A DNA stretch of 64,000 bases. Source: Bradyrhizobium betae (GTDB taxonomy: Bacteria > Pseudomonadota > Alphaproteobacteria > Rhizobiales > Xanthobacteraceae). The position numbers and the translations under genes were made by a program. Within the stretch, counting starts at the first letter, position 1. Every line of letters starts with the position of its first letter. The stretch spans positions 5,400,501-5,464,500 of the forward strand of contig NZ_CP044543.1 in assembly GCF_008932115.1 (NCBI RefSeq). The letters are read 5' to 3'. Under the pieces are notes generated by a model. It was not told the DNA's origin. It did not search any database and saw nothing but the letters and a program-made list of their open reading frames with translations. Of this stretch, positions 26,357 to 43,327 are shown piece after piece.

Positions 26357-26369
26357 AAAGGATCGAGAA

Positions 26370-26834: not shown

Positions 26835-26842
26835 ATTGAGCC

Positions 26843-27571: not shown

Positions 27572-27636
27572 GGGAGAACTCCGCAAATTCGTCGAATTTC
27601 GATGAAAACAGCCTAATTCACGCATCGAGGTCCGTT

Positions 27637-27650
27637 TTGACTCAGGTCAA
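27637..27650. promoter_or_regulatory. FNR/FixK-type box 1 (for the CBS-BON gene)
   Basis: TTGACTCAGGTCAA. A TAGGCT hexamer at 27615-27610 on the minus strand is at the spacing of a class II site (centred near -41.5), leaving a leader of about 30 bases before the start at 27571. Confidence 0.75.
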
Positions 27651-27700
27651 GCAGGGTGAACCGGTCAGGGCGATGAAGCAATCGTGATTGGCGAACGAAG

Positions 27701-27714
27701 TTGATACAGCTCAA
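27701..27714. promoter_or_regulatory. FNR/FixK-type box 2 (for the PHA synthase gene)
   Basis: TTGATACAGCTCAA. TATCCT at 27737-27742 is exactly at the -10 position for a class II site, with a leader of about 35 bases before 27784. Confidence 0.75.
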
Positions 27715-27783
27715 CGGCATCTGAAGCGGGTCGCCATATCCTGGCAGAGCCCGAAACCGTAAAGCGCGCAGGAATATTCAGCC

Positions 27784-29610
27784 ATGAGCGTCGTGCAGCT
27801 TGTCCCACGAGCCGATCAACCGGCTGAAGAGCCTTCCGTCAATCCCGTTGCGAGCGTCGGCCCTCCGGCCGAACAGCCGGCAACGCAACCGGCGTCAGCG
27901 CCAGAGCCATACCCCGTCGACCGCGCATTTCACGCGATGCTGGCGCAGTTCACGGGCGGGATTTCACCGGTGGCCCTGTCGCTCGCCTGGCTCGATTGGA
28001 GTTCGCACCTCGCCGCCGCGCCGCAGCGGCAAACGGAGATCATCAGAAACGCCTTTCGCGACACCGGCCGGTTCGTGGAGGCCGCGTTGCACGCGACGTC
28101 GCCGGATCGGAAACCGTGGTCGGTGATCCAGCCGCAGCGCCGGGATCGCCGCTTCAGGGAGCCGCAGTGGGAGACCGCGCCGTTCAACCTGATGGCGCAG
28201 GCCTTCCTGCTCGGAGAGCGCTGGTGGCACGATGCCACGACTGGGGTGCGTGGCGTCGCGCCTGCGAATGAAGCCGTCGTCGAATTCGCGACACGCCAGA
28301 TGCTCGACACGTTCGCGCCGTCGAATTTCGCGGCGACAAATCCGGAAGTGCTTGAAAAAGCCTTTCAGAGCGGCGGCGAGAACTTCGTCTTCGGTTTGCA
28401 GAATTGGTGCAGCGATCTGATGCGGCTGCTTTCCGCCGCGAAACCGGCTGGCGACGAGCAATTCGTGGTTGGCAAGACGGTCGCGGCGTCTCCCGGAAAG
28501 GTCGTCTACCGCAACGAGCTGATCGAGCTGATCCAGTATCATCCGACGACCGCGCAGGTGCGGCCCGAGCCGATCCTGATCGTGCCTGCCTGGATCATGA
28601 AGTACTACATCCTCGATCTATCGCCGCATAATTCACTGGTGCGTTATCTTACCAGTCAGGGCTTCACCGTGTTCGCGATCTCATGGCGCAACCCGGATGC
28701 CAAGGATCGGGATGTTGCCTTCGATGACTATCGCAAGTCGGGCGTCATGGCCGCGCTGGACACGATCGGCCGGATCGTGCCGGGCCGGACAATCCATGCG
28801 CTCGGCTATTGTCTGGGCGGCACGTTGCTGTCGATCGCCGCCGCGGCGATGGCGCGCGATGGCGACAAGCGATTGGGTACCGTCACATTGCTTGCCGCGC
28901 AGACCGACTTCACCGAGGCCGGCGAGCTGACGCTCTTCATCAACGAGAGCCAGGTTGCGTTCCTCGAAGACATGATGTGGAAGCGCGGCTATCTCGATAC
29001 GACGCAGATGGCCGGCGCGTTTGCGCTGCTGCGATCCAACGATCTGATCTGGTCGCGGCTGTCGCACGACTATCTGATGGGAGAGGCGTCGTCGTCGAGC
29101 GACCTGATGGCCTGGAACGCCGACGCCACGCGACTGCCTTATCGCATGCACTCGGAATATCTGCGCAAACTGTTCCTCGACAATGATCTGGCCGAAGGCC
29201 ATTACCGTGTCGATGACAGGAACATCTCGCTTTCCGATATTCACGCGCCGATGTTCGTGGTCGGCACGCTCTCCGATCATGTGGCGCCGTGGCGATCCGT
29301 CTACAAGCTCCACTATCAGGTCGATGCCGACGTGACGTTCCTGTTGACGAGCGGCGGTCACAATGCCGGTGTGGTCGCGGCTCCGGACGAGCCGGGCCAC
29401 AGCTATCAGGTGATGACCAAGGCCGCGGATGCGCCCTATGTCGGTCCCGATGAATGGCTGAAGCTGGCGCCGCATGTTGAGGGATCGTGGTGGCCGGAGT
29501 GGAGCAAATGGCTCGCCGCCCGCTCGGGCGAGCCCTGCGATCCGCCTCAGATCGGGCTCGGGGACGGCTCCGGCCTGCCCGACGCGCCCGGAGACTACGT
29601 CCACACCTAG
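27784..29610 (+). CDS. phaC: Class I poly(3-hydroxyalkanoate) synthase
   Basis: A 608-residue PhaC-type synthase that polymerises 3-hydroxyacyl-CoA on granule surfaces. The lipase-like box GYCLGG (nucleophile Cys near residue 343), catalytic Asp in GTLSDHVAPW (near 497) and His in SGGHNAGV (near 525) are intact. PAWIMKYYILDLSPHNSLVRYL and VFAISWRNPDA are family signatures. The first 45 residues are Pro/Ala-rich and poorly conserved. It is preceded by FNR/FixK box 2, so it is probably a low-oxygen isozyme rather than the housekeeping synthase. It converges with the CHAD gene with a four-base overlap. Confidence 0.9.
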   Translation: MSVVQLVPRADQPAEEPSVNPVASVGPPAEQPATQPASAPEPYPVDRAFHAMLAQFTGGISPVALSLAWLDWSSHLAAAPQRQTEIIRNAFRDTGRFVEAALHATSPDRKPWSVIQPQRRDRRFREPQWETAPFNLMAQAFLLGERWWHDATTGVRGVAPANEAVVEFATRQMLDTFAPSNFAATNPEVLEKAFQSGGENFVFGLQNWCSDLMRLLSAAKPAGDEQFVVGKTVAASPGKVVYRNELIELIQYHPTTAQVRPEPILIVPAWIMKYYILDLSPHNSLVRYLTSQGFTVFAISWRNPDAKDRDVAFDDYRKSGVMAALDTIGRIVPGRTIHALGYCLGGTLLSIAAAAMARDGDKRLGTVTLLAAQTDFTEAGELTLFINESQVAFLEDMMWKRGYLDTTQMAGAFALLRSNDLIWSRLSHDYLMGEASSSSDLMAWNADATRLPYRMHSEYLRKLFLDNDLAEGHYRVDDRNISLSDIHAPMFVVGTLSDHVAPWRSVYKLHYQVDADVTFLLTSGGHNAGVVAAPDEPGHSYQVMTKAADAPYVGPDEWLKLAPHVEGSWWPEWSKWLAARSGEPCDPPQIGLGDGSGLPDAPGDYVHT

Positions 29611-30596
29611 TCCTCGGGCTCCGCGTTCGGCGCGAGATCCGAAGAGCGGAACGGCTTGGCCTTGTCCAACTTCCGATAGGCTTCCGAGGCGGTTCGCAGC
29701 AGCTTCTTCTCCCGCTTGCGGTCGAGGAAGCGAATGCCCGCCCCGGGGATGGCCTCGTTCAATGAGGCCGCCAGGATCTGCCCGCGCGCATCGTCGTTCA
29801 ACTGTCCGAGAGACCTTTGCGCCTTGCGCAATTGCTTGAGGATCGACTTCTGCTTGACCAACGATTCATCGGCGAACAGGTCCTCGAGCGACTCGATCGA
29901 ATAGGTCAGCCGCTTGTTCAGAAGCCGCAGCTTGTGCCGTTTCTCGACGTCGAGCTTGCGAAGCTTCCGCGCCTTCCTGAGCAGCGTCGTTTCCCATGCG
30001 GTGAGTTGCGCCGTCGCGTGGTCGGCGAGCGTGCGGCGCCGCAATCTGATGGCCTCCTTGCTGCGCCGGGTCGACCAGGGACCGCTTTCGATCCAGGCCG
30101 AGGTCTGCTCGACCAGGCGCCGATAGCGCGCGGAGTGCAGCGCGCGCGCCAGCAGGCGATGGCTCTCGGCGCGCTTGTCGTCCCAGTGCCGCAGCTCGGC
30201 GATCACGGCGAGCTCTTCGCCGCTCTCGGCGACGACGCGTTCGATCGCCACGTCGAGGTCCCGCACCATGCCGAGCTGGCTGTTCAGCCATTTCAGGCCG
30301 GCCCAGACCTCCGGCCGCCGTGCGTCGTCGACCATCGGCGAGAAGAAGCGGATCGAGGTACGCAGATGCGTCAGTGCAATCCGGATCTGATGCAGCGCTT
30401 CCTGATCGCCGCGGCAGGTGCCGTCGTGCTGGGCGAGCACGGCATCGAGATGGCGGCGGGCGATGATCCGGAACGCGGTGTCGCAGGCCATGCCGGGGCT
30501 GAGGCGTCCAGGCAGGGCATTGCGTCGCACCGCCGGATTGACGCGGGCGGTCGCTGTCGAGCGCGTGGTGGGTCGCGACATCCTTATCCGCGTCAC
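29607..30596 (-). CDS. CHAD-domain protein
   Basis: A 329-residue protein, almost all one CHAD domain: conserved His (ALHQIRIALTHLRTSIRFFSPMV), WLNSQLGMVRDLDVA, and a very basic helical C-terminal half (TLLRKARKLRKLDVEKRHKLRLLNKRLTY). CHAD domains bind inorganic polyphosphate and target granules. It is the third gene of an apparent operon with alcohol dehydrogenase and kinase genes (gaps of about 10 bases), whose promoter has FNR/FixK box 3. The GTG start is chosen for its AAGG upstream; ATG 30581 is an alternative. Its pairing with a convergent phaC suggests coordinated carbon and phosphate storage. Confidence 0.85.
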   Translation of the reverse strand: MTRIRMSRPTTRSTATARVNPAVRRNALPGRLSPGMACDTAFRIIARRHLDAVLAQHDGTCRGDQEALHQIRIALTHLRTSIRFFSPMVDDARRPEVWAGLKWLNSQLGMVRDLDVAIERVVAESGEELAVIAELRHWDDKRAESHRLLARALHSARYRRLVEQTSAWIESGPWSTRRSKEAIRLRRRTLADHATAQLTAWETTLLRKARKLRKLDVEKRHKLRLLNKRLTYSIESLEDLFADESLVKQKSILKQLRKAQRSLGQLNDDARGQILAASLNEAIPGAGIRFLDRKREKKLLRTASEAYRKLDKAKPFRSSDLAPNAEPED

Positions 30597-30606
30597 TCAG
30601 ATTGCC

Positions 30607-32142
30607 TTACCTGCCCTCAGCGATCGCGCCCCGGCAGTTCTGGAGCGTCTGCCCTGGTGTCCCGGATGCATCGATGGTCGCCCAACCGACATGGCCGATA
30701 TTATAGTGCTCTTGCCGCGCGGCAACCTCTTGCGTGGCGTCGGATGCGTCGCCCCGGCGGCCGCCGATCCGCGCCTGGCGGATCGCGAGGTCTGCGACCA
30801 GGAATAGTCCGTTGAGCGTCACACCGCACGCGTGCGCCAGAGCTGCCAAATCGTCCCGTTCTGATTCGTGTGCAAACACAGCATCGACGATGACGGAATG
30901 GCCTTGCGCCAGGACCTGCCGGGCGCGCTGCATCAGCACCTCGTACACGCGCGCTGTCACGTCGGGCCGGTACGTGGAGGGCGGCAGCCGATCGGTGTGC
31001 CCCACCTGAAACAACTGCTTGCGAATGACGTCGCTGCGCAGCACGACGGCGCCCGGTTGCGGCGCTATGGTGGGGGCCAGCGCGCGGGCGAGCACGGACT
31101 TGCCGGTGCCCGACAGTCCGCCAACCGCGATCAGGCGAGGGGCGGGCGGATGAATCAAGGTTCGGGCGAGCTCGAAATAGCGGCGCGCCTCGCCGAGAAT
31201 TTCGGGACGGTCGGCATTGGGCCGGTTCAGCCTCGCCAGCGCCACTTGCGCACGGATCGCCGCGCGGATGGACATGAACAGCGGCAGCGCGGCCAGGGCG
31301 TCGAGGGTCTCGACGGGTGCGTTGATCAGATACTGGTTCAGGACCGCATTGGCTGCGTCTGCCTGATCGTAGCGCAGCAGATCCATCAGGGTGAACGCGA
31401 GGTCGTAAAGCACGTCCACGGTTGCCATCTGCGCATCGAATTCGATCGCGTCGAACAGGACGGGCTGCCGGTCGATCAGCACGATATTGGCAAGATGCAG
31501 GTCGCCGTGACAGCGGCGTACGAAGCCGTGGCGAGCGCGTTGCTCCAGCGTCGCACGGAGGTGCAGGAAGGCCCGGTGGGAAGCCTTGCCAAGCTGTTCG
31601 ATAGCTGTCGCTTCAAGATGGTCGCCATTGCGCAGGCCGGTGCCGTTGCCGTCGATCAGGACAGGAATGGAGTTGATCCACGCCGCGCCGTCGGCAACCG
31701 TTGCCTTGGCATGCGATGATGCGATCGCATCGGCGATGGCCAGCGCCAGTTCGGCGCCCAGCGGGCCCGCCTTCGCCAAATGGTCCAGCGTCCGGTTCTC
31801 ATCGAAGCGCGCCATATCGACCGCATATTCGATCGGCCGTCCGCGACCGTCGATCTTCACCGATCCATCCGGCTCCTCCGTGATCGCCACGACACGGTGG
31901 TAGATTTGCGGCGCGAGCGGCCGGTTGATCCTGATCTCCTCCTCGCAGGCTGCCTTGCGCTTGTCGAGCGTCGAATAATCGAGGAATGGAAACTTGACGG
32001 CGCGCTTGATCTTCAGCGCGCGGTCGCCGTCCAGGAATACCGAAGCGCCATGCGTGTCGATCCGCGCCACGCCGGTGTGTCCGGCGAGGGTCTGGAAGAT
32101 CCGTTCCTGGGCCGCAGTTTCATCTGTCATCGAAGCAGGCAT
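30607..32142 (-). CDS. Bifunctional aminoglycoside-phosphotransferase-like / AAA (Zeta-toxin-like) kinase
   Basis: A protein of about 511 residues with two domains. The first has a kinase/phosphotransferase fold (FVRRCHGDLHLANIVLIDRQ catalytic loop, then FDAIEFD) and the second a P-loop kinase domain (IAVGGLSGTGKSVLARALA near residue 335, then IVDAVFAHESERDDLAAL). This architecture is common in proteobacteria and often listed as an AAA family/aminoglycoside phosphotransferase protein; the substrate is unknown and drug resistance should not be inferred. ATG 32142 is preferred; TTG 32148 and ATG 32130 are in frame. It lies 10 bases after the alcohol dehydrogenase gene in the box 3 operon. Confidence 0.84.
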   Translation of the reverse strand: MPASMTDETAAQERIFQTLAGHTGVARIDTHGASVFLDGDRALKIKRAVKFPFLDYSTLDKRKAACEEEIRINRPLAPQIYHRVVAITEEPDGSVKIDGRGRPIEYAVDMARFDENRTLDHLAKAGPLGAELALAIADAIASSHAKATVADGAAWINSIPVLIDGNGTGLRNGDHLEATAIEQLGKASHRAFLHLRATLEQRARHGFVRRCHGDLHLANIVLIDRQPVLFDAIEFDAQMATVDVLYDLAFTLMDLLRYDQADAANAVLNQYLINAPVETLDALAALPLFMSIRAAIRAQVALARLNRPNADRPEILGEARRYFELARTLIHPPAPRLIAVGGLSGTGKSVLARALAPTIAPQPGAVVLRSDVIRKQLFQVGHTDRLPPSTYRPDVTARVYEVLMQRARQVLAQGHSVIVDAVFAHESERDDLAALAHACGVTLNGLFLVADLAIRQARIGGRRGDASDATQEVAARQEHYNIGHVGWATIDASGTPGQTLQNCRGAIAEGR

Positions 32143-32152
32143 CCGCAATTAC

Positions 32153-33136
32153 TCATGGCGTCAGCACGGCCGCGCCGAGAATCCGGCCGTCGCGCAGCAT
32201 GCTCAGAACCTCGTTGGCTTGATCGAGCGGAAATGCCGTCGTCTCGGTGCGCACGCCGGCTTGCGGGGCGATCTTGAGAAAGTCGAGGCCATCCTGCCGG
32301 GTCAGATTGGCGACCGAGACGAGCTGCCTTTCCTCCCAGAGCAGGTCATACGGAAAGCTCGGAATGTCGGTCATGTGGATGCCGGCGCACACGACGCGAC
32401 CGCCTTTGCGCACGGCGCGCAACGCGGCGGGTACCAGCTCGCCGGCTAGTGCGTAGATGATGGCTGCGTCGAGCGGTTCGTCGGGCATTTCGTCAGAAGC
32501 CCCCGCCCAGGCAGCGCCGAGACGACGGGCAAGACCTTGTGCCGCGCCGTCACCGCGCCGCGTGAATGCATAAACGGATCGCCCCTGCCAGACCGCGATT
32601 TGCGCGATGATGTGGCCGGCGGCGCCGAAGCCGTAGAGGCCCAACCTCTCCGCAGGGCCGGCCAGCACCAGCGAGCGCCAGCCGATCAGCCCTGCGCACA
32701 GCAGAGGAGCCATCTCCACGTCATTGCCGGCCTCGCCGAGCGGAAATGCATAACGTGCATCGGCGATGGCGTGCGTCGCGTAGCCGCCGTCACGCGTGTA
32801 GCCGGTGAACATCGGGCTGTCACACAGATTTTCCATGCCTTCCCGGCAGAATCGACAGTGTCCGCAGGTGAAACCGAGCCAGGGAATGCCGACCCGGTCA
32901 CCGGCCGCATGTGTCGCAACATTGGGACCGACCAGATCAACCCGGCCAATGATCTCGTGGCCGGGCACGATCGGATAGCGAATATCAGGCAGCTCGGCGT
33001 CGATGAGGTGAAGGTCGGTCCGGCATACCCCGCAAGCGGTGATCCTCACCCGGATCTGCCCCTCGCCGGGCACCGGATCGGGCCGCTCCTCCATGCGGAG
33101 CCGCGCTCGTGGGGCCGGCAACACCATCGCATGCAT
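32153..33136 (-). CDS. Zinc-dependent alcohol dehydrogenase
   Basis: A 327-residue medium-chain dehydrogenase. The catalytic-zinc Cys is in ACGVCRTDLHL, the zinc His and Glu are in PGHEIIGRV, and the structural-zinc lobe GHCRFCREGMENLC carries the expected cysteines together with TCG. The Rossmann part GLYGFGAAGHIIAQIAVWQG binds NAD(P). Length and the IRYPIVPGHE start are typical of AdhA-like enzymes. As first gene of a three-gene operon under FNR/FixK box 3, it likely supports redox balancing (fermentation-like alcohol/aldehyde exchange) during oxygen limitation. Confidence 0.89.
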   Translation of the reverse strand: MHAMVLPAPRARLRMEERPDPVPGEGQIRVRITACGVCRTDLHLIDAELPDIRYPIVPGHEIIGRVDLVGPNVATHAAGDRVGIPWLGFTCGHCRFCREGMENLCDSPMFTGYTRDGGYATHAIADARYAFPLGEAGNDVEMAPLLCAGLIGWRSLVLAGPAERLGLYGFGAAGHIIAQIAVWQGRSVYAFTRRGDGAAQGLARRLGAAWAGASDEMPDEPLDAAIIYALAGELVPAALRAVRKGGRVVCAGIHMTDIPSFPYDLLWEERQLVSVANLTRQDGLDFLKIAPQAGVRTETTAFPLDQANEVLSMLRDGRILGAAVLTP

Positions 33137-33198
33137 AGGTCTCTCCGGTGCGAACCGCTCCGACTGGATTATCCATAGAGCGGCCGAGTGGCCAGTCC

Positions 33199-33212
33199 TT
33201 GACTTCGGTCAA
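33199..33212. promoter_or_regulatory. FNR/FixK-type box 3 (for the alcohol dehydrogenase-kinase-CHAD operon)
   Basis: TTGACTTCGGTCAA. TATGGA on the minus strand at 33177-33172 lies at the class II -10 position; the leader before 33136 would be about 28 bases. Confidence 0.75.
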
Positions 33213-33247
33213 CGCGCAGCCCCGGCTGACCTCACTGAGTGAAGGGC

Positions 33248-33261
33248 TTGACGAGGATCAA
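33248..33261. promoter_or_regulatory. FNR/FixK-type box 4 (for the universal stress protein gene)
   Basis: TTGACGAGGATCAA. TATTTT at 33283-33288 lies at the -10 position; the start is at 33309, preceded by AAGGAG. Confidence 0.75.
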
Positions 33262-33308
33262 GCGTCCCGACCGGAGCGGGCCTATTTTGATGGCCAAGGA
33301 GAATTCCG

Positions 33309-34145
33309 ATGCCCATCAAGGACGTCTTTCTGCCGCTGGTCGGCCACCCCCAGGGGCAGGCTCTCGCTGCGATCGAAAAATGCGTTGCCGCGGCTGCCGA
33401 TCTCGGCGCCAGGATCACGGCGCTCGCGCTGGAGGACGATGTATTCGTGCGTCCGCGCGTGGTGCTTCCGGCCGATCGGGAATCCGCCGAAGCGCGCGCG
33501 CCCGAGGTGGGCGACATGCAGCAGCTTTTGAATGCATTTACCCAGGCAGCCTCCCGCGCCAACACCCGCGCCCAAACTCGGTCGGGCAAGGTGCCGGCGG
33601 ACCAGATCGCGTCGGTCCTGGCCGAGCATGCGCGCTTCAGTGATCTCACGCTGGTCCCCGTGAAGCCGCATGACAGCCGAACGGAGCACATCATCGAAAC
33701 GCTCCTGTTCGAATCCGGACGGCCGCTCTTGCTCTGTCCGGAACAGCATGTGGATGCGTTACGTTCAGAATTCGAGAATGTCATGATCGCCTGGGATCAC
33801 TCCGCCCGAGCCGCGCGGGCGGTCGGCGACGCGCTGCCCATTCTTCAGGCTGCGGCATCCGTTCAGGTGATTACGGTCGCGGACGACAAGACCGACGAGA
33901 TGGTTCGATCCGGAACTGCGCTCGTGGACCATCTGAGGGAACACGGGGTCCACGCCTCGTTCGAAACGGCGAAGGCCGGTGGCAGCTCGATCGGTAAGGT
34001 GCTCGGAAGCTGGGCGAAATCCCATGCTATTGATGCCATCATCATGGGCGCCTATCATCATTCGCGCTTGAACGAGATCGTTTGGGGCGGTGTGACAAAG
34101 ACTGTCATTGGCCAGCCACCGTGCTGGGTTATGATCTCGCACTAG
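33309..34145 (+). CDS. Universal stress protein (UspA family, two-domain)
   Basis: A 278-residue cytoplasmic protein with two Usp-like halves. The C-terminal half keeps the nucleotide-binding pattern IIMGAYHHSRLNEIVWGGVTKTV (G-x2-x-x9-G-G type), and VMIAWDHSARAARAV begins that half near residue 157. The N-terminal half (KDVFLPLVGHPQGQALAAIEK) is more diverged. A strong AAGGAG is upstream, and FNR/FixK box 4 is 48 bases upstream. It precedes the ADP-forming synthetase gene by 70 bases, and the two probably share the promoter. Confidence 0.88.
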   Translation: MPIKDVFLPLVGHPQGQALAAIEKCVAAAADLGARITALALEDDVFVRPRVVLPADRESAEARAPEVGDMQQLLNAFTQAASRANTRAQTRSGKVPADQIASVLAEHARFSDLTLVPVKPHDSRTEHIIETLLFESGRPLLLCPEQHVDALRSEFENVMIAWDHSARAARAVGDALPILQAAASVQVITVADDKTDEMVRSGTALVDHLREHGVHASFETAKAGGSSIGKVLGSWAKSHAIDAIIMGAYHHSRLNEIVWGGVTKTVIGQPPCWVMISH

Positions 34146-34215
34146 GCGCGTCGCCAGTTTTTCGGCCTGATCCTCAACTGTCGGAATCCGCCCCCGACCG
34201 GGTGCATTTGGTTTC

Positions 34216-36909
34216 ATGTCTACCTATCGCTTGAAGAATCTGCTGTCGCCACGCTCGGTCGCGCTCGTCGGGGCGAGTGCCCGTCCGACCTCCGTGGGGC
34301 GCGCCGTTCTGGACAACATCCGCAAGGCGGAATTCAAGGGGCAGTTAGGCCTCGTCAATCCGCGCCATGCGGAGATCGGCGGCATCGCCGCGGTCAAGAG
34401 CCTGGACGGGCTGGGCTTCGTGCCCGAGCTCGTGGTCATCACCGCGCCGGTGCGAGAGGTTCCCGGCATCATCGACCAGGCCGGCCGTCTCGGCTCGGCG
34501 GGTGCGCTGATCGTCTCGGCCGGACTCGGCCAGGGGCCGGGATCCCTGCAAGAGGCCGCCATCGCCGCGGCCCGCAAATACGGCATGCGCCTGATCGGCC
34601 CCAACTGTCTCGGCATCATGATGCCGGGCGTGAGCCTCAACGCGAGTTTTGCCGCGCACATGCCCGGCGCGGGAAATCTCGCGCTGATTTCGCAGTCCGG
34701 TGCGATCGCCGCCGGCATGGTCGATTGGGCCGCGCAGCGCGGCGTCGGCTTTTCCGGGATCGTCTCGATCGGCGACCAGATCGACGTCGACATTGCGGAT
34801 CTGCTCGATTATTTCGCGATGGATCACAAGACCCGCGCGATCCTGCTCTATATCGAGGCCATCAAGGACGCGCGGAAATTCATGTCGGCCGCTCGCGCCG
34901 CCGCACGTGTCAAGCCTGTGGTCGTGGTCAAGTCCGGCCGCATGGCGCAGGGCGCAAAGGCAGCGGCGACCCATACTGGAGCGCTCGCCGGCGCCGATGC
35001 CGTCTATGACGCGGCGTTCCGTCGCGCCGGTGTCCTTCGGGTGTCGGATCTGCGCGAGCTGTTCGATTGCGCCGAGACGCTCGGCCGCGTCGAATCGCCG
35101 GCGGGAAAGCGTCTCGCGATCCTGACCAATGGTGGCGGTATCGGCGTTTTGGCTATCGATCGGCTGGTCGAGCTTGGCGGAATTCCGGCGTCCATCTCGG
35201 CCGACGCGCGCAAGAAGCTCGATGAAGTGCTGCCCGCGACCTGGTCCGGTGCAAATCCCGTCGACATCGTGGGCGACGCGGATGCTTCGCGCTACGCGGC
35301 CGCGCTGGAGGTGCTGCTCGTCGATCCGGACAATGACGCAATTCTCGTCCTCAATGTGCAGACCGCGATCGCCTCCGCTTCCGACATCGCAAGGACCGTG
35401 ACCGAGCGCGTTGGAAAATATCGCGAGCAGCAGCGTCGATGGGCAAAGCCGGTTCTGGCTGCCTGGGTCGGAGCCGATCAAGAGATCATCGCAACGCTGT
35501 CCAGCGCCGGCATTCCCAACTATCCGACCGAAGACGACGCGGTGCGCGGCTTCATGCATCTGGTGAGGCATCGCGAAGTCGTGGAGGAACTCAGTCAGGT
35601 CCCGCCCGCGATGCCCGATACGTTCGTGCCCGACGCCAAGGGTGCCCGGCAGATCGTCGCCGCGGCGATCGCCGATGGCCGCAAATGGCTCGAGCCTGTC
35701 GAAATCAAGCATCTGCTCGAAACCTATGACATCGCGATGGTGCCGACTTATGCTGCGACGGACGTCGAGCAGGCGGTCGGCTACGCGAACGAGGTGTTTG
35801 CGCAAGGCTCGACCGTCGTGCTCAAGATCATGTCGCGCGACATCGTCCATAAATCCGATGTCGGCGGCGTCGTGCTGAATCTGACCACGCCGGACGCGGT
35901 GCGTACCGCTACCTCCGACATTCTCGCCCGGGCGAGGAAGCTGCGCCCCGAAGCCCGCATTGAGGGCGTCATCGTGCAGGCGATGGTCGTCAAGGTGAAA
36001 GCGCGTGAGCTGATCCTCGGTCTTGCCGACGATCCGACCTTCGGCACCGTCGTCGTGTTCGGCCGGGGTGGAACGGCGGTGGAAATCATCAACGACAGGG
36101 CGCTCGCGCTGCCGCCGCTCGATTTACAGCTCGCCCGCGACCTCATCGACCGCACGCGCGTGTCACGGCTGCTGAAGGCCTATCGGGATGTGCCGGCTGT
36201 CAAGCAGGATGCTGTCGCCATGGTGCTGGTCAAGCTCGCCCAGATGGCGGCCGACATTCCCGAAATCCGCGAATTCGACATCAATCCGCTGCTGGCGGAC
36301 GAAACCGGCGTGACGGCGGTCGATGCTCGCGTTGCGGTCGGGCCGCCGCAACGGAAATTTGCAGGCTCCGGCCCGGCCAATTTCGCCGTTCGGGCCTATC
36401 CGTCGCAATGGGAGCGCCGGCTCAAGCTCAAGGACGACTGGCGCATCCTGGTGCGGCCCTTGCGCCCCGAGGACGAGCCGACCATTCACGAATTCCTGCG
36501 TCACGTCACGCCGCACGACCTCCGCCTGCGCTTCTTCGCGCCGATGAAGGAGTTCACCCACGAGTTCATCGCGCGCCTGACCCAGCTGGACTATGCGCGC
36601 GCGATGGCCTTCATCGCGTTCGACCAGGCCACCGGAGAAATGGTCGGCGTCGTCCGGCTTCATTCCGACTCGATCTATGAGAGCGGCGAATATGCAATCC
36701 TGCTGCGGTCGGACCTCAAGGGCAGGGGGCTCGGTTGGGCCTTGATGCAGTTGATCATCGACTACGCGAGGTCCGAAGGGCTGAAGGTCATATCCGGTGA
36801 CGTGCTCAAGGAGAACACCGTGATGCTCGAGATGTGCCGGCAGCTCGGTTTCGAAGTAAAGCCGGACCCGGGCGAACCCGATATCTGCGACGTCCGGCTC
36901 AAGCTCTGA
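34216..36909 (+). CDS. ADP-forming acetate-CoA ligase / GNAT acetyltransferase fusion (Pat-like)
   Basis: An 897-residue multidomain protein. In order it has a CoA-binding domain (SPRSVALVGASARPTSVGRAVLDN, residues about 8-130), a succinyl-CoA-ligase-like domain with GPNCLGIMMPG and SQSGAIAAGMVDWA, an ATP-grasp domain (about 480-700, PVEIKHLLETYDIAMVPTY, VVLKIMSRDIVHKSDVGGVVLNL), and a C-terminal GNAT domain (about 730-897, ILVRPLRPEDEPTIHEFLRH, LLRSDLKGRGLGWALM). The arrangement equals that of protein lysine acetyltransferases such as Pat/PatZ, which also inactivate acetyl-CoA synthetase. Whether the synthetase half is active needs its phospho-His checked. It lies in the low-oxygen island after UspA. 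Confidence 0.88.
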   Translation: MSTYRLKNLLSPRSVALVGASARPTSVGRAVLDNIRKAEFKGQLGLVNPRHAEIGGIAAVKSLDGLGFVPELVVITAPVREVPGIIDQAGRLGSAGALIVSAGLGQGPGSLQEAAIAAARKYGMRLIGPNCLGIMMPGVSLNASFAAHMPGAGNLALISQSGAIAAGMVDWAAQRGVGFSGIVSIGDQIDVDIADLLDYFAMDHKTRAILLYIEAIKDARKFMSAARAAARVKPVVVVKSGRMAQGAKAAATHTGALAGADAVYDAAFRRAGVLRVSDLRELFDCAETLGRVESPAGKRLAILTNGGGIGVLAIDRLVELGGIPASISADARKKLDEVLPATWSGANPVDIVGDADASRYAAALEVLLVDPDNDAILVLNVQTAIASASDIARTVTERVGKYREQQRRWAKPVLAAWVGADQEIIATLSSAGIPNYPTEDDAVRGFMHLVRHREVVEELSQVPPAMPDTFVPDAKGARQIVAAAIADGRKWLEPVEIKHLLETYDIAMVPTYAATDVEQAVGYANEVFAQGSTVVLKIMSRDIVHKSDVGGVVLNLTTPDAVRTATSDILARARKLRPEARIEGVIVQAMVVKVKARELILGLADDPTFGTVVVFGRGGTAVEIINDRALALPPLDLQLARDLIDRTRVSRLLKAYRDVPAVKQDAVAMVLVKLAQMAADIPEIREFDINPLLADETGVTAVDARVAVGPPQRKFAGSGPANFAVRAYPSQWERRLKLKDDWRILVRPLRPEDEPTIHEFLRHVTPHDLRLRFFAPMKEFTHEFIARLTQLDYARAMAFIAFDQATGEMVGVVRLHSDSIYESGEYAILLRSDLKGRGLGWALMQLIIDYARSEGLKVISGDVLKENTVMLEMCRQLGFEVKPDPGEPDICDVRLKL

Positions 36910-36922
36910 GCACCTCGGCTGA

Positions 36923-36950
36923 CTTGGGCTATGAGTCTTGGGCTATGAGT
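36923..36950 (+). repeat. Perfect tandem duplication of 14 bases
   Basis: CTTGGGCTATGAGT occurs twice head to tail. The second copy covers the end of the convergent holin-like gene, whose stop codon lies inside it. It is a recent slippage product by appearance; no function is evident. Confidence 0.8.
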
Positions 36951-37431
36951 GGGCTTCGCGTGATGTCGCCGCGGCGGGATCCTTGGCTGTCTTCCGCAGG
37001 CTCTTGATGATGATCGCGATCAGCGGTAGCAGCACAGGCACGATTGTGCTGAGCGGATGGTGGACCGCGCCGGACACTTGTGCCTGCAGCGCGCGCGCCT
37101 CGATCTGCAGGGCCTCGATGGATGAGCTGTGAATTTCGTTGGCCAGCTCAATGTCGCGGCCGGACGGAGAACGGCCAGCGATGATGAAGAGAATCCCCGC
37201 GATGGCAAAATTGACAGCGCCGAGGATGGCTGCCGCGACTATCGCGCTCCAGATCTGGACCAGCGCGAAATAGGCCGACAGTTCCAGCATCAGAAGGCCG
37301 AACGCTGCGATCAGGGCCGCAAAGGCGCGCAGGCCGAGGCCGACCAGCAGGTGGCGCAACCTGATGTCCGCAATGATCCTGTCGGTACGCCACAGCACAC
37401 GCAGATGTTTGACGACATTCTCCGTATTCAC
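36943..37431 (-). CDS. Phage-holin-like (YqjE-type) membrane protein
   Basis: A 162-residue protein with two strong transmembrane segments (about residues 33-57, GLRAFAALIAAFGLLMLELSA, and 64-85, AAILGAVNFAIAGILFIIAG) and a hydrophobic stretch near 128-142. Basic ends suggest both termini are cytoplasmic. This matches the holin superfamily/YqjE type, which usually pairs with DUF883/YqjD proteins. It starts with GTG directly after the DUF883 stop. The pair probably acts at the membrane under stress; the lytic role of the name should not be assumed. Confidence 0.72.
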   Translation of the reverse strand: MNTENVVKHLRVLWRTDRIIADIRLRHLLVGLGLRAFAALIAAFGLLMLELSAYFALVQIWSAIVAAAILGAVNFAIAGILFIIAGRSPSGRDIELANEIHSSSIEALQIEARALQAQVSGAVHHPLSTIVPVLLPLIAIIIKSLRKTAKDPAAATSREAHS

Positions 37432-37707
37432 CTAGTGTCTCCTCAGCATGAAGCCGACCACCACGCCGAGCGCGAAAGCCGAGGCGAGCGAGGTGATCGG
37501 GCGATCCGCAATGATGCCCTGGAGCTGTTCCTGCTCGTCGCTGACGGTCTCGCCGAGCTCGGCAAGCGCGATCTTGATCTGATCAGCCAAGGCTTCGGCC
37601 CGGTCCTTCGAGCTGTCGAATATCTCCTCGCCGGCGGTGCTCAGCAGGCGGGTGACATCAACCTTGAGAGTTCGCAATTCTTCGCTCATCCTGTCGCTGT
37701 CGAACAT
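37432..37707 (-). CDS. DUF883/YqjD (ElaB)-family protein
   Basis: A 91-residue protein with an amphipathic, coiled-coil-like N-terminal 65 residues (MSEELRTLKVDVTRLL...) and one C-terminal membrane anchor (SLASAFALGVVVGFMLRRH). This is the plan of YqjD/ElaB, tail-anchored membrane proteins known in E. coli to associate with ribosomes in stationary phase. It lies immediately upstream of the holin-like gene, with box 5 upstream of it. Confidence 0.78.
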   Translation of the reverse strand: MFDSDRMSEELRTLKVDVTRLLSTAGEEIFDSSKDRAEALADQIKIALAELGETVSDEQEQLQGIIADRPITSLASAFALGVVVGFMLRRH

Positions 37708-37763
37708 GAATAAGGTGCCTCCGTTAACTGGAAACGAACCTAGGGCCGCCAGCGCGGCCGCGC

Positions 37764-37777
37764 TTGATTTGCGTCAA
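37764..37777. promoter_or_regulatory. FNR/FixK-type box 5 (for the DUF883/holin-like pair)
   Basis: TTGATTTGCGTCAA. TAGGTT on the minus strand at 37742-37737 lies at the -10 position relative to the gene start 37707. Confidence 0.75.
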
Positions 37778-37798
37778 GGGGCGCGCGATGTCCTGGTC

Positions 37799-37812
37799 TT
37801 GAGACAGGTCAA
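37799..37812. promoter_or_regulatory. FNR/FixK-type box 6 (for the MlaE-like operon)
   Basis: TTGAGACAGGTCAA. TAGAAG at 37834-37839 is at the class II -10 position, placing +1 near 37847. A GTG start at 37883 then has a normal leader, whereas an ATG at 37850 would be leaderless. Confidence 0.75.
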
Positions 37813-37882
37813 ACCGGTCGCCACATGCTGGCCTAGAAGTGTCGTCTGAATGGGGACGGATTGTCCCGATGAGGTGGAAAGC

Positions 37883-39019
37883 GTGAACTCCCAACCGCTG
37901 TTGCTGGCGACGCCCTCCGGCGACGTGCTGAAATTGCGCCCGGAAGGGCCGTGGACCGCCGCCAATGTGTCGGCGCTCGAGACGCTGTCCCGTTCGGTCG
38001 GGGCAGATGTGGATCGATTCAGAACCGTGACGCTGGACATGTCGGGTGTCAGCGCTCTGGACACGCTTGGCGCCTGGGTCCTGGAGAAGCTGTCGCGCAG
38101 GGCCGCGTCTTCCGGCAGGTCGGCGGAATTCATCGGAGTTGCCGATCATTTCAGCGGTCTCCTGGACGAGGTGCGTCAGGTCAATCGCCACACGCCGGCG
38201 CCGACGGCCGCCCCCAATCCGATTTCGCTCAGGTTGTACGATCTCGGCAAGGCCACGGTCGGTGCGCGCGAGGACGTCACGATCTTCCTTCAAATGCTCG
38301 GCGCATTGTTCATGGCCGTGATCGGCGTGTTGCGCCACCCGCGATCGCTGCGGCTGACGTCGCTGATCTATCAGCTCTACCGCATCGGCTGGCAGGCCAT
38401 CCCGATTGTCGCGCTGATTACCTTCCTGATCGGCGCCATCATAGCCCAGCAGGGATTCTTTCATTTCCGCAGGTTCGGTGCCGAATCCTACACGGTCGAC
38501 ATGGTCGGCATCCTCGTGCTGCGCGAGCTCGGCGTGCTGATCGTCGCCATCATGGTGGCCGGCCGTTCGGGGAGCGCCTACACCGCCGAGCTCGGCTCGA
38601 TGAAGATGCGTGAGGAGATCGACGCGCTCTCGACCATGGGCCTCGATCCCGTCCACGTCCTGATCCTGCCGCGGGTTGCGGCTCTCGTGATCGCGCTGCC
38701 GATCCTGGCCTTCATTGGATCGCTCGCCGCGCTCTATGGCGGTGGCCTCGTCGCGCAATTCTATGGCGACATGGGGCCGGCGATCTACATCGCGCGGCTG
38801 CACGAGGCCATCTCCGTCACTCATTTCGAGGTGGGCATCCTGAAGGCGCCGTTCATGGCGCTGGTGATCGGGATCGTCGCCTGTAGCGAGGGGCTGCGCG
38901 TGAAGGGCAGCGCCGAATCGCTGGGACGCCAGACCACGACGTCGGTGGTGAAGTCGATCTTCCTGGTGATCGTGCTCGACGGCCTGTTCGCGATCTTCTT
39001 CGCCTCGATCGGAATGTGA
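37883..39019 (+). CDS. MlaE-like lipid ABC transporter permease with N-terminal STAS domain
   Basis: A 378-residue protein. Residues 1 to about 105 form a STAS-type domain (DRFRTVTLDMSGVSALDTLGAWVLEKLSRRA), as in MlaB. Residues 120-378 are an MlaE-type permease with about five membrane segments (IGWQAIPIVALITFLIGAIIAQQG, YTVDMVGILVLRELGVLIVAIMVAGRSGSAYTAELGSMKMREEIDALSTMGLDP). GTG 37883 is chosen from GAGGTGG and box 6 spacing; ATG 37850 would add 11 residues. With the next two genes it forms a retrograde/anterograde lipid transporter of the Mla/Pqi class. The MlaB function is thus fused to the permease. Confidence 0.87.
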   Translation: MNSQPLLLATPSGDVLKLRPEGPWTAANVSALETLSRSVGADVDRFRTVTLDMSGVSALDTLGAWVLEKLSRRAASSGRSAEFIGVADHFSGLLDEVRQVNRHTPAPTAAPNPISLRLYDLGKATVGAREDVTIFLQMLGALFMAVIGVLRHPRSLRLTSLIYQLYRIGWQAIPIVALITFLIGAIIAQQGFFHFRRFGAESYTVDMVGILVLRELGVLIVAIMVAGRSGSAYTAELGSMKMREEIDALSTMGLDPVHVLILPRVAALVIALPILAFIGSLAALYGGGLVAQFYGDMGPAIYIARLHEAISVTHFEVGILKAPFMALVIGIVACSEGLRVKGSAESLGRQTTTSVVKSIFLVIVLDGLFAIFFASIGM

Positions 39020-39789
39020 TGATGGCCGAATCGCAGGAAGTCTTCGCGATCCGCGTCCGCGACCTCGTGGTCGGCTTCGGCCGCCAGACCGTGCTCGATC
39101 ATCTGTCGATCGACGTCCGCAAGGGCGAAATCCTCGGGCTGGTGGGTGCGTCCGGTGGCGGCAAGTCGGTGTTGATGCGCACCATCATCGGCCTCATCCC
39201 GCGCCGAAGCGGGACGATCGAGGTCATGGGACAGCCCATCGGCGGCCGCACGCAGGGCGCGGCCACGACGTGGGGCATCCTGTTCCAGCAGGGCGCGCTG
39301 TTCTCCTCGCTGACGGTCCGGCAGAACGTCCAGTTTCCGCTGCGCGAGAATCTTACCCTGTCGCAGGAGCTGATGGACGAGATCGCGATCGCCAAGCTCG
39401 AAATGGTGGGGCTGCGTCCGCAGGACGCCGACAAATATCCGGCTGAACTCTCCGGCGGCATGACCAAGCGTGTCGCGTTGGCGCGCGCGCTCGCGCTCGA
39501 TCCGCCGATCCTGTTCCTGGACGAGCCGACCTCCGGCCTCGATCCGATCGCCGCCGGCGATTTCGACGCGCTGATCAAGACGCTGCAAAAGACTTTGGGC
39601 CTCACCGTGTTCATGGTGACCCATGACCTTGCGAGCCTGACCACGGTCTGTGACCGCGTCGCGGCGCTCGCTGACGGAAAGATCGTCGCGATCGGCCCGA
39701 TGCGCGAATTGCTGCAATCCGAGCATCCCTGGGTGCGCGCCTATTTCCACGGCAAGCGCTCGCAGATGCTGCAACACGAGATGAGATGA
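39019..39789 (+). CDS. Mla-type ABC transporter ATP-binding protein (MlaF-like)
   Basis: A 256-residue ATPase. Walker A is GASGGGKSV, the Q-loop is WGILFQQGALFSSLTV, the signature LSGGMTKRVALARALA, Walker B PILFLDEPTSGLDPI and the H-loop VTHDLASL; these match MlaF. The start ATG overlaps the permease stop as TGATG, and a second ATG follows at once. It ends 3 bases before the MCE gene. Confidence 0.92.
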   Translation: MMAESQEVFAIRVRDLVVGFGRQTVLDHLSIDVRKGEILGLVGASGGGKSVLMRTIIGLIPRRSGTIEVMGQPIGGRTQGAATTWGILFQQGALFSSLTVRQNVQFPLRENLTLSQELMDEIAIAKLEMVGLRPQDADKYPAELSGGMTKRVALARALALDPPILFLDEPTSGLDPIAAGDFDALIKTLQKTLGLTVFMVTHDLASLTTVCDRVAALADGKIVAIGPMRELLQSEHPWVRAYFHGKRSQMLQHEMR

Positions 39790-39792
39790 GAC

Positions 39793-40896
39793 ATGGAAAC
39801 CCGCGCTCCCTACGTGCTGATCGGCACCTTCGTGCTGGCTGCGATCCTCGCGGTGTTCGGCTTCGTCTATTGGCTGAACAACACCGGCGGCATCGGGCCG
39901 CGCACGAACTATCATGTGCAGTTCCAGGGGCCGGTGCCGGGCCTGCTGGTCGGCGCGGGTGTGCTGTTCAACGGCATCCGCGTCGGTGAGGTGACGCAGC
40001 TTGGCCTTGCATCTGACAATCCGCGCTTCGTCAATGCGACGGTCTCGGTAGCCTCGACGACGCCGGTGCGCGCCGACACCAAGGTTGGGCTCGATTTCCA
40101 GGGGCTGACCGGCGTGCCCGTGGTGACGCTGGAGGGCGGCACGATCGTCGCCAAATCCGGCGAGCCCCCGGTCTTGATCGCCGAGGCTGGCGCAGGCCAG
40201 AGCATGACACAGGCCGCGCGAGACGCGCTGCGGCGGGTCGACTCCGTGCTGCAGGACAATTCCGGCCCGCTCAAGGACACCATCGCCAATTTCAAGACGT
40301 TCTCCGACGGGCTGGCGCGGAACACCGGCAAGGTCGACGGTATTCTGGCGGGCCTCGAGAAGATGACCGGAGGCGGGGCGCCGGCGCAGAAGATCACCTA
40401 TGACCTGCGCACGCCGCAGAACCTGGGACCGGCCGGCAAGACGCTCTCGGCGTCGCTGGCCATTCCCGAGCCGACCGCGGTCGCGATGCTCCAGACCCAG
40501 CGCATGCTGTTCGCGCCGGTTGGCGACAATCCCGGCTTTGCAGATTTCCTCTGGGCCGACAGCATTCCCAAGCTGGTGCAGGCGCGGCTGATCGACAGCT
40601 TTGAGAACTACGACATCGCCCACGCTCCCTTGCGCACGACCGATCTCGGGCAAGCGGACTACCAGCTCTTGATCGACATCAGGCGCTTCCGCATCGCCAC
40701 CGACGGCGAGACAAGGGTCGAGATCGGACTAACGGCGCGGATCGTCGACAAGAGCGGCAAGGTCATCGCGTCACGCCTGGTCGAGGCCAGCGAGAAGCTC
40801 GACAAGCTCGAGCCGGCCGCGGCGGTCGCAGCCTTCGACGCGGCCTTTGCCCGTATCGCCAAGGAGCTGATCGGCTGGACGGTGCAGGCGGTGTGA
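39793..40896 (+). CDS. MCE (MlaD-like) protein fused to an ABC auxiliary (PqiC-like) domain
   Basis: A 367-residue protein. It has an N-terminal membrane anchor (YVLIGTFVLAAILAVFGFVYWL), an MCE domain (about 40-125, NYHVQFQGPVPGLLVGAGVLFNGIRVGEV, LDFQGLTGVPVVTLEGG), a helical linker, and a C-terminal domain (about 195-367) that resembles the PqiC/ABC-auxiliary lipoprotein family (TQRMLFAPVGDNPGFADFLWADSIPKL, LLIDIRRFRI). In most systems these are separate proteins, one being an outer-membrane lipoprotein. The fusion lacks a lipobox, so it would hold both functions on one inner-membrane-anchored chain. Confidence 0.82.
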   Translation: METRAPYVLIGTFVLAAILAVFGFVYWLNNTGGIGPRTNYHVQFQGPVPGLLVGAGVLFNGIRVGEVTQLGLASDNPRFVNATVSVASTTPVRADTKVGLDFQGLTGVPVVTLEGGTIVAKSGEPPVLIAEAGAGQSMTQAARDALRRVDSVLQDNSGPLKDTIANFKTFSDGLARNTGKVDGILAGLEKMTGGGAPAQKITYDLRTPQNLGPAGKTLSASLAIPEPTAVAMLQTQRMLFAPVGDNPGFADFLWADSIPKLVQARLIDSFENYDIAHAPLRTTDLGQADYQLLIDIRRFRIATDGETRVEIGLTARIVDKSGKVIASRLVEASEKLDKLEPAAAVAAFDAAFARIAKELIGWTVQAV

Positions 40897-40902
40897 CGTC
40901 GG

Positions 40903-41220
40903 CTATTCCAGCGTCTTCAGGTAGGACAGCAGATCGTGGATCTGGTCCGGACTGAGCTCGAACACCGGCATGTCGGCGTGGCCGGTGTTGATGCCTTCGG
41001 CCAGCGCCTCTTCGAGGGCTTCGACCGGATAACGCTGGTGCAGGGTACGCAGCGGCGGTGCGATCTTGAGCGGGCTCTTCGACGCACGGTCGATCGCGTG
41101 GCAACGAGCACAATTGGCCCGCGCGAAGGCCTTGCCGCGTTGTTCGGCAGTCGGGGCCGCCAAGGCAGGCGTGACCAGAAGCAGCCCGATCAGGCCGTGG
41201 CGGAACGCGCTTGGCAGCAT
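40903..41220 (-). CDS. Small class I cytochrome c
   Basis: A 105-residue periplasmic mono-haem cytochrome. A signal peptide (MLPSAFRHGLIGLLLVTPALA) precedes the haem motif CARCH near residue 38, and an axial Met is likely in HADMPVF near 84. ATG 41220 is the sensible start; an in-frame upstream extension to 41505 overlaps the Fnr-type gene. FNR/FixK box 7 lies 54 bases upstream with TATTCT at the -10 position. A role as an electron carrier for microaerobic respiration fits. Confidence 0.88.
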   Translation of the reverse strand: MLPSAFRHGLIGLLLVTPALAAPTAEQRGKAFARANCARCHAIDRASKSPLKIAPPLRTLHQRYPVEALEEALAEGINTGHADMPVFELSPDQIHDLLSYLKTLE

Positions 41221-41274
41221 GGAAGGTATCCCTCGAACTCTGGAAGCAGAATAAGGCGGTGATGTCCGCCAAAA

Positions 41275-41288
41275 TTGATCTGAGTCAA
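41275..41288. promoter_or_regulatory. FNR/FixK-type box 7 (between cytochrome c and the Fnr-type regulator)
   Basis: TTGATCTGAGTCAA. For the minus strand, TATTCT (41253-41248) fits the cytochrome c promoter. For the plus strand, TAAAAT (41309-41314) lies near the -10 position for the regulator, so both genes may use one box and the regulator may control itself. Confidence 0.75.
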
Positions 41289-41370
41289 CCGTCTTTGGCG
41301 CAGTGCAGTAAAATGCAGCCCGCGCGGTGGACCCGGCCTGATGCGGGGCAGCCGGCGCTTGGAGCGGTGG

Positions 41371-42084
41371 ATGAAGGCTTCCCTGGTGACGACCGAGCCA
41401 AACGGGCATCTTTGTAGCGATTGTGCGGTCCGCGATTTCGCGGTTTGTTCGTCGCTGGACCCAGCCGAGCTCCGGGAATTCGAGCATCTGGGGCGTCGCG
41501 TCCAATTCAGCTCGGGCGAGACCGTGTTCTCCGAGGAGGACATCACGACCTCGTTCTACAACCTCCTCGAAGGCGTCATGCGGCTCTACAAGCTGCTGCC
41601 CGACGGCCGGCGGCAGATCGTGGGATTCGCGCTATCAGGCGATTTCCTGGGGATGAATATTTCCGGCCGACACAATTTTTCGGCTGATGCGATCGGCACG
41701 GTGACCGTCTGCCAGTTCGCGAAGGTGCCCTTTGGCCGTTTCATCGAGGGCCGGCCGCATCTTCTGCGTCGGATCAACGAGCTGGCCATTCGCGAGTTGA
41801 GCCAGGCCCGCGACCACATGGTTCTGCTCGGCCGGCGCTCGGCGGACGAGAAGATCGCGACCTTTCTGCTCGGTTGGCGGGAGCGGCTGGTCTCGCTCAA
41901 GGGATCGTCCGACATGGTTCCGCTTCCGATGAGTCGGCAGGACATCGCCGATTATCTCGGCCTGACCATCGAAACCGTCAGTCGCACCTTCACCAAGCTT
42001 GAGCGTCATGGGGTGATCGAGATCATTCATGGCGGCATCAGCCTGCTTGATCCGGCTCGCGTCGAGGCGCTGGCGGCGGCCTGA
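41371..42084 (+). CDS. Fnr-type transcriptional regulator (FnrN/FixK1/AadR class, Fe-S cysteines present)
   Basis: A 237-residue CRP/FNR protein. The N-terminus holds C15, C18 and C26 (CSDCAVRDFAVC) and a fourth Cys at C114 (TVTVC), the pattern of oxygen-sensing [4Fe-4S] Fnr proteins of rhizobia. The helix-turn-helix MSRQDIADYLGLTIETVSRTF has the E-x-x-S-R recognition helix known to read TTGA half-sites. It therefore matches the eight boxes in this island and is probably their local activator, although FixK2-type proteins elsewhere could use the same boxes. ATG 41371 is used; an in-frame start at 41341 adds 10 residues. Confidence 0.9.
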   Translation: MKASLVTTEPNGHLCSDCAVRDFAVCSSLDPAELREFEHLGRRVQFSSGETVFSEEDITTSFYNLLEGVMRLYKLLPDGRRQIVGFALSGDFLGMNISGRHNFSADAIGTVTVCQFAKVPFGRFIEGRPHLLRRINELAIRELSQARDHMVLLGRRSADEKIATFLLGWRERLVSLKGSSDMVPLPMSRQDIADYLGLTIETVSRTFTKLERHGVIEIIHGGISLLDPARVEALAAA

Positions 42085-42115
42085 CCCTCGATCCTGACGC
42101 CGCGTCCCCCGATTT

Positions 42116-42129
42116 TTGATCCCGATCAA
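42116..42129. promoter_or_regulatory. FNR/FixK-type box 8 (for the small membrane protein)
   Basis: TTGATCCCGATCAA, the most perfect palindrome of the set. TAATCC (42153-42158) or AATAAT (42151-42156) can serve as -10, with the start at 42183 after GGGGAGGG. Confidence 0.75.
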
Positions 42130-42182
42130 TGACGCCCGCTTTGTGTCGCCAATAATCCCCAAAACAATCAGGGGAGGGCATC

Positions 42183-42317
42183 ATGCCGATGGACGCGGTG
42201 CTGATGAGTGTCGTCGTTGTGGCTATCTTTGTTGCATTCGGTGCGGTTTTGGCTTGGGCAGACCGCCAAACCAGCGCAGGCCGGCGCGACCAGAGCGCCA
42301 AGCGCCGAAGCTCCTGA
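42183..42317 (+). CDS. 44-residue single-span membrane protein of the low-oxygen island
   Basis: A short gene of 44 codons. A hydrophobic stretch MSVVVVAIFVAFGAVLAWAD forms one membrane span, followed by a basic, polar tail (RQTSAGRRDQSAKRRSS). GGGGAGGG lies 6-7 bases before the ATG, and a perfect FNR/FixK box with a -10 is correctly placed. The promoter, ribosome site and coding pattern together support a real gene. I do not recognise a named family; small one-span proteins in microaerobic regulons often attach to respiratory oxidases (CcoQ-like), which is only a guess here. Confidence 0.72.
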   Translation: MPMDAVLMSVVVVAIFVAFGAVLAWADRQTSAGRRDQSAKRRSS

Positions 42318-43317: not shown

Positions 43318-43327
43318 TCGTGCGGGC

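Follow-up and report, generated by a model that had tools for sequence, protein, structure and literature searches.

In Bradyrhizobium diazoefficiens USDA 110, the genes bll6060 to blr6074 form a block of the FixLJ-FixK2-FixK1 system. According to Table 2 of PMC6515984, microoxia raises bll6060, bll6063, bll6064, bll6065, bll6068, bll6069, bll6073 and blr6074 at both the protein and the transcript level, and bll6069, bll6073 (phaC2) and blr6074 are given there as direct FixK2 targets after Mesa 2008. In Table 2 of PMC9104804, deletion of fixK2 lowers bsr6066 92.6-fold, blr6067 20.9-fold, phaC2 27.9-fold and blr6074 90.9-fold, and a motif is given for the transcription unit of each of the four. 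The same paper reports validation of phaC2 by in vitro transcription. In PMC10888616, phaC2 appears as a FixK2 target and is discussed as possibly inactive, and FnrN/FixK control of phbC was predicted in some Rhizobiales (PMC4999443). The consensus of the FixK2-type box is TTG[A/C]-N6-[T/G]CAA, and at nosR of B. diazoefficiens one of the two starts found by 5' rapid amplification of cDNA ends lies 40.5 bp from the axis of the FixK2 box (PMC5582078). Here we describe the corresponding region of Bradyrhizobium betae, an island of eight TTGA-N6-TCAA boxes in a stretch of 64,000 nucleotides (the window, G000:C1:5400501-5464500) of the 7.42-Mb genome.

For the genes named in papers, the island has the same products in the same order as the B. 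diazoefficiens block. A sequence-only reading of the window had proposed a low-oxygen island of FixK/FNR boxes. This proposal is upheld by the conserved boxes and -10 elements, by the genome-wide spacing and by the microoxia-induced B. diazoefficiens counterpart, and for B. diazoefficiens it is largely in print. With high confidence, the region is a FixK-regulated low-oxygen block, in which FixK2, and perhaps FixK1, would act at each box by class II recruitment from about -40.5, with a box for each promoter in three divergent regions and one shared box in the fourth. Four details appear to be new: the layout with one box for each promoter, the sharing of the box in the fourth region, a small membrane protein that is conserved in relatives, and an acyl-CoA ligase/acetyltransferase with a histidine that is lost in PatZ. 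Among the open-access papers searched, none on FixK boxes in divergent intergenic regions was found; in the available part of a start-site paper on B. japonicum (PMC4842269), FixK occurs only in passages of the reference list.

Boxes and -10 elements

The pattern TTGA-N6-TCAA occurs exactly eight times in the window, at 27637, 27701, 33199, 33248, 37764, 37799, 41275 and 42116, and all eight are exact matches to the FixK2-type consensus, a 14-bp palindrome. In 100 dinucleotide shuffles the mean was 0.37 and the maximum 3, in agreement with the earlier estimate of less than one chance match per 64 kb. Genome-wide, 110 boxes were found against 23 matches to the reversed control pattern, and eight of the 110 lie within the 14.5 kb of the island, where 0.21 is expected. 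The coordinates in the sequence-only reading were right, and the window holds no further box. Its description of all boxes as intergenic, six of them paired in divergent promoters, also holds with gene starts set from domain matches and likely ribosome-binding sites: the six boxes form three pairs, each in a divergent region.

For comparison, one genome per species was scanned, giving 239 relatives, and the best 80 of the 239 were used; 74 of the 80 are titled Bradyrhizobium. The boxes and -10 elements of the window are as follows.

27610..27615, minus strand: -10 TAGGCT of the CBS gene, 21 bases from the box; across 38 loci, its T, A and final T are each retained in 97-100%
27637..27650, minus strand: FixK box of the CBS gene, exact, conserved in relatives
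27701..27714, plus strand: FixK box of phaC, exact, conserved in relatives
27737..27742, plus strand: -10 TATCCT of phaC, from spacing and conservation
33172..33177, minus strand: -10 TATGGA of the alcohol dehydrogenase (ADH)-kinase-CHAD operon, from spacing and conservation
33199..33212, minus strand: FixK box of the ADH operon, exact, kept in relatives
33248..33261, plus strand: FixK box of the universal stress protein (Usp) operon, exact, kept in relatives
33283..33288, plus strand: -10 TATTTT of the Usp operon, from spacing and conservation
37737..37742, minus strand: -10 TAGGTT of the operon of the 91-residue and holin-like proteins, from spacing and conservation
37764..37777, minus strand: FixK box of the 91-residue/holin operon, exact, kept in relatives
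37799..37812, plus strand: FixK box of the MlaEFD-type operon, exact, kept in relatives
37834..37839, plus strand: -10 TAGAAG of the MlaEFD-type operon, from spacing and conservation
41248..41253, minus strand: -10 TATTCT of the cytochrome c gene, from spacing and conservation
41275..41288, no strand assigned: single FixK box common to cytochrome c (minus) and fixK1 (plus), one box in 56 of 56 loci
41309..41314, plus strand: -10 TAAAAT of fixK1; TA present in all 36 loci with the full layout, each base kept in 91-100% of 56 loci
42116..42129, plus strand: FixK box of the small membrane protein; of the 61 loci (of 80) used for this count, 53 have one exact box beyond fixK1 at a distance of up to 160 bases
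42151..42156, plus strand: probable -10 AATAAT of the gene for this protein; 31 of 40 relatives have it at 21 or 22 bases

A gene-facing hexamer beginning with TA starts 21 bases past the box at 27637, 33199, 33248, 37764, 37799 and 41275 (cytochrome side), and 22 bases past it at 27701. With the local TA frequency, independent sites and the gene side given, TA at 21 or 22 in at least seven of eight sites has a chance of about 1.5e-9. If the hexamer is taken as -12 to -7, 21 bases correspond to a box centre at -40.5 and 22 bases to -41.5. The predicted usual centre is -40.5, one base nearer than the -41.5 of the sequence-only reading, which had placed a TA hexamer within one base of the expected position at every box. 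At 42116 the hexamer TAATCC is off register, 23 bases past the box, whereas AATAAT at 21 bases is a better match to the common spacing. Forty of the 42 relatives with the small open reading frame (ORF) behind this box have the exact box upstream, with AATAAT at 21 bases in 22 and at 22 bases in nine; among the other nine, NATA[A/G]T is at 21 or 22 in six and at neither place in three (37 of 40 in total). At box 41275 the sequence-only reading had named one -10. TATTCT on the cytochrome side was correct, but TAAAAT, 20 bases from the box on the fixK1 side, had been missed.

Class II spacing is common in the B. betae genome. Places are listed for 101 of the 110 boxes, and at the 93 outside the island (186 directions) TA stands at 21 in 17 cases and at 22 in another 17. 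The other distances from 5 to 44 have 3.8 on average and never more than 9 (distance 20, with three occurrences, excluded). A box followed by TANNNT at a gap of 20-22 is found 25 times in the genome, six of them in the island, and not once with the reversed control. The island promoters resemble class II FNR/FixK promoters of the nosR type, with a FixK-type box near -40.5 or -41.5 and a -10 at a fixed distance, that of 42116 only when AATAAT is taken; the start sites are predicted. Unlike the nosR-type promoter, the island has eight boxes in 14.5 kb and two architectures side by side.

Conservation of the layout

The full eight-box layout is present in 35 of the 80 loci, giving 36 with the window. 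The 68 of the 80 loci that exceed 22,000 bases contain 6.85 boxes on average, against 0.04 control matches. Boxes were also counted between adjacent, divergent gene pairs at most 400 bases apart, with matches of at least 50%, which left 38, 33, 53 and 56 of the 80 loci for the four regions. Between CBS and phaC, two exact boxes are present in 38 of 38 loci, and in all of these the first box has a -10 on its minus side alone and the second on its plus side alone. The ADH/Usp region has two boxes in 32 of 33 loci. Between the 91-residue protein and MlaE there are two boxes in 49 of 53 loci, three in one and one in three. The cytochrome c/fixK1 region has exactly one box in 56 of 56 loci.

In the 36 loci, the CBS, phaC, Usp, holin and MlaE boxes all have TA at 21 or 22 on the gene side but not on the opposite side. 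Agreement with the window is 98-100% for the box letters, 79-91% between the half-sites, 80-94% for the -10 elements and 55-69% for the rest of the regions. It is very improbable that the boxes mainly repress or are relics, with the -10 hexamers being AT-rich chance. FNR-family proteins can repress, and the -10 at 42116 is poor, but the one-sided TA at a fixed distance in 36 loci, the independent peak in the rest of the genome, the conservation and the published activation of block genes all count against such a role.

The spacing within the three pairs varies (54-76, 42-58 and 23-38 bases), whereas the distance from box to -10 stays mostly at 21-22 bases (36 loci). Each box therefore most likely belongs to one promoter. 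Joint action of the paired boxes by looping or cooperative binding, in place of one box per promoter, is quite unlikely. Both members of the pairs are kept in nearly all gene-anchored loci, which favours joint action, but the drift of the pair spacing speaks against it. Moreover, two of the three single-box loci of the 91-residue/MlaE region have a -10 on both sides of the box; thus, the pair is not needed. Cooperative binding at a set phase was considered separately and rejected, because the pair spacing varies.

In the cytochrome c/fixK1 region, a -10 lies on both sides of the box in 51 of 56 loci. Thus, the 41275 box probably serves both the cytochrome c and the fixK1 promoters. Box sharing has a precedent in Table 2 of PMC9104804, where the motifs of hemN2 and bsr7087 are the same sequence in opposite orientations. 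It also became less likely that two-sided use of a single box is confined to the island: five of the 93 other sites have TA at 20-22 on both sides, about the 3.7 expected if the sides are independent.

The layout also bears on the published assignments. When measured to the farther box, the distances in the island equal the motif places in Table 2 of PMC9104804 (-143 for blr6074, -105 for bsr6066). In that table the motifs of blr6074 and phaC2 are reverse complements of each other, and the bsr6066 motif equals the MlaE-side box of the island read on the opposite strand. In the window and its relatives, unlike in the table, the CBS gene and the 91-residue gene each have another box closer by, accompanied by a -10. 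We infer that the blr6074 and bsr6066 rows name the box of the neighbour. The Mla-type operon, with its own box and -10, would be a direct FixK target; as bll6063-bll6065 are marked as not direct in PMC6515984, direct control of this operon is a prediction of the present analysis.

The block is modular (L016-L095). The PhaC, the ADH or the MlaE-cytochrome-FixK1 part is absent in some loci, and the remainder often retains its boxes. In the 68 long loci, matches of at least 50% identity were found for FixK1 in 57, Usp in 56, MlaE in 58, cytochrome c in 53, PhaC in 49 and ADH in 41.

Regulators and proposed mechanism

A FixK2 orthologue is encoded elsewhere in the genome, near 1,269,700 (G000:C1). 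It is a full-length match to PDB 4i2o (232 residues, E 2.4e-139) and has the redox cysteine of FixK2, Cys183, where the 4i2o chain carries the C183S change. The regulator within the island (41371..42084) has cysteines at 15, 18, 26 and 114 and an ETVSR helix, as the sequence-only reading had noticed in describing an Fnr-type protein with four cysteines and an E-x-x-S-R helix. It matches the FixK2 and FNR structures more weakly than the genome FixK2 matches 4i2o. Its best NCBIfam score is to FnrL, 170.2 bits, which is under the 300-bit cut-off; therefore it is named FixK1/FnrL-type and not FnrL. We take bll6061 to be fixK1 of B. diazoefficiens. A third FixK-like protein, also with an ETVSR helix, is encoded at 4.594 Mb, beside the next largest group of boxes among the 101 sites with listed places (eight over 48 kb, G000:C1:4547187-4594977).

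The main activator of the island is probably FixK2 and not the local four-cysteine protein. The alternative that the FixK1/FnrL-type protein, with an oxygen-labile Fe-S cluster, is chiefly responsible for activating the island that encodes it, FixK2 serving only to start it, is unlikely. The position of this regulator within the island, its four cysteines and top score to FnrL, the conserved -10 on the fixK1 side of the shared box, and the marking of several island genes as not direct FixK2 targets in Table 2 of PMC6515984 are in its favour. On the other side, the four block genes of B. diazoefficiens fall 20.9- to 92.6-fold upon fixK2 deletion, a decrease that does not separate direct from FixK1-mediated effects. 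The ADH/Usp boxes are kept without a local FixK1 in L042, L044, L047 and L065. The genome of L047 has FixK2 (87%) and no FixK1 match above 40%, and retains both ADH/Usp boxes, but that of L065 has an 86% FixK1 elsewhere. According to PMC5582078 and PMC9104804, fixK1 is itself activated by FixK2.

With FixK2 as the main activator, the sequence of events would be as follows. At low oxygen the FixLJ cascade, established for B. diazoefficiens, would raise FixK2 in B. betae as well. FixK2, perhaps with FixK1, would bind each TTGA-N6-TCAA box as a dimer, and the bound dimer would recruit RNA polymerase from the class II position to the weak -10 on the gene side. In three divergent regions each promoter would use its own box. 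In the fourth, one symmetric box would drive both cytochrome c and fixK1, where two polymerases may compete.

Several observations weigh against this interpretation. In Table 2 of PMC6515984, bll6060, bll6063, bll6064, bll6065 and bll6068 are marked as not direct FixK2 targets. The -10 of the 42116 promoter (AATAAT) lacks the first T, and in seven of the 32 two-box ADH/Usp loci there is no TA at 20-22 on the gene side of the ADH box. L055, L083 and L084 (each longer than 22 kb) and the 3.5-kb L086 have no box; the genome of L055 has FixK2 (91%). The genomes of L042 and L044 (G002 and G003) show no FixK1 or FixK2 match above 33% identity, and their Usp box is intact. Boxes number 67 in the first genome and 59 in the second, with 16 and 22 control matches; the two genomes may have lost the regulator, use another one or be incomplete assemblies. 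Neither expression nor binding data came to light for B. betae.

Genes of the block and their meaning

The genes of the region are as follows.

26843..27571, minus strand: CBS-BON domain protein (matches blr6074), Pfam CBS and BON, start set by sequence
27784..29610, plus strand: polyhydroxyalkanoate (PHA)-synthase-like protein (PhaC2 type, bll6073), Pfam PhaC_N
29607..30596, minus strand: CHAD-domain protein
30607..32148, minus strand: APH-like/AAA_33 kinase-like fusion
32153..33136, minus strand: Zn-binding alcohol dehydrogenase family protein, TIGR02822
33309..34145, plus strand: universal stress protein (bll6069)
34216..36909, plus strand: ADP-forming acyl-CoA synthetase-GNAT acetyltransferase fusion (bll6068), ATHTGALAG histidine kept
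36943..37431, minus strand: holin-X-like membrane protein (blr6067)
37432..37707, minus strand: 91-residue protein (bsr6066), conserved ORF with no Pfam match
37850..40896, plus strand: MlaE permease, ABC ATPase and MlaD/MCE protein (bll6065, bll6064, bll6063)
40903..41220, minus strand: small c-type cytochrome (blr6062, named cytochrome C6 in PMC5017801)
41371..42084, plus strand: FixK1/FnrL-type regulator, four Cys, ETVSR helix
42183..42317, plus strand: 44-residue conserved membrane-protein ORF, in 42 of 80 loci
42589..43317, plus strand: second Crp-family regulator (probably bll6060), PF13545 match, RESINK helix

The fusion protein at 34216-36909 has the full-length acetyltransferases PDB 9it0 and 9isq as its best matches. 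Like these PatZ/Pat protein acetyltransferases, it consists of a full-length part resembling ADP-forming synthetases and a GNAT domain. Unlike them, it carries ATHTGALAG, where 9it0 and 9isq have RLLNTTAG after a four-residue gap, with leucine at the place of the histidine. SHTG stands at the same place in the ADP-forming synthetases 4xyl and 8wzu and in the related 2csu. Together the 80 loci contain the ATHTGALAG motif 80 times, and its histidine is presumably the phosphorylated one. If the fusion is active, it could give ATP from acetyl-CoA at low oxygen by substrate-level phosphorylation. A wider proposal is tentative and may well be wrong. The shared box would be a genus-wide two-way class II switch, in which the genes for an electron carrier and for a second oxygen regulator draw on one activator dimer, and the neighbouring operons are insulated by boxes of their own; the island would also make a competent ADP-forming acyl-CoA synthetase-lysine acetyltransferase, which gives ATP from acyl-CoA and adjusts metabolism as respiration slows.

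The PHA-synthase-like protein scores 536.8 bits against the NCBIfam class I model (TIGR01838), below the cut-off of 622.65. The genes for the CHAD protein and the kinase-like fusion (29607-32148) are adjacent on the same strand beside it, and matches of at least 50% to the two proteins are present in 59 and 64 of the 68 long loci. A link of polyphosphate and PHA storage is a guess from this neighbourhood. The 44-residue ORF has a good ribosome-binding site and lies directly behind a FixK box; its length in the relatives is 39-62 residues. The RESINK regulator is kept at about 91% identity or more in 59 of the 80 loci, and is present even without the MlaE-cytochrome-FixK1 part (L026, L042, L044, L047, L055 and L065). 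No Rfam family was found in positions 26000-44500, and no tRNA in the window.

The island offers a clean natural set for tests of class II activation, with three box-per-promoter regions and one shared box within 15 kb, kept across dozens of genomes. The layout suggests a revision of the box-to-gene assignment in the published B. diazoefficiens table, and from it a lipid-transport operon, marked as not direct in the literature, is predicted to be under direct FixK control. The island also draws attention to a predicted energy enzyme and a very small membrane protein as candidate parts of the response to low oxygen.

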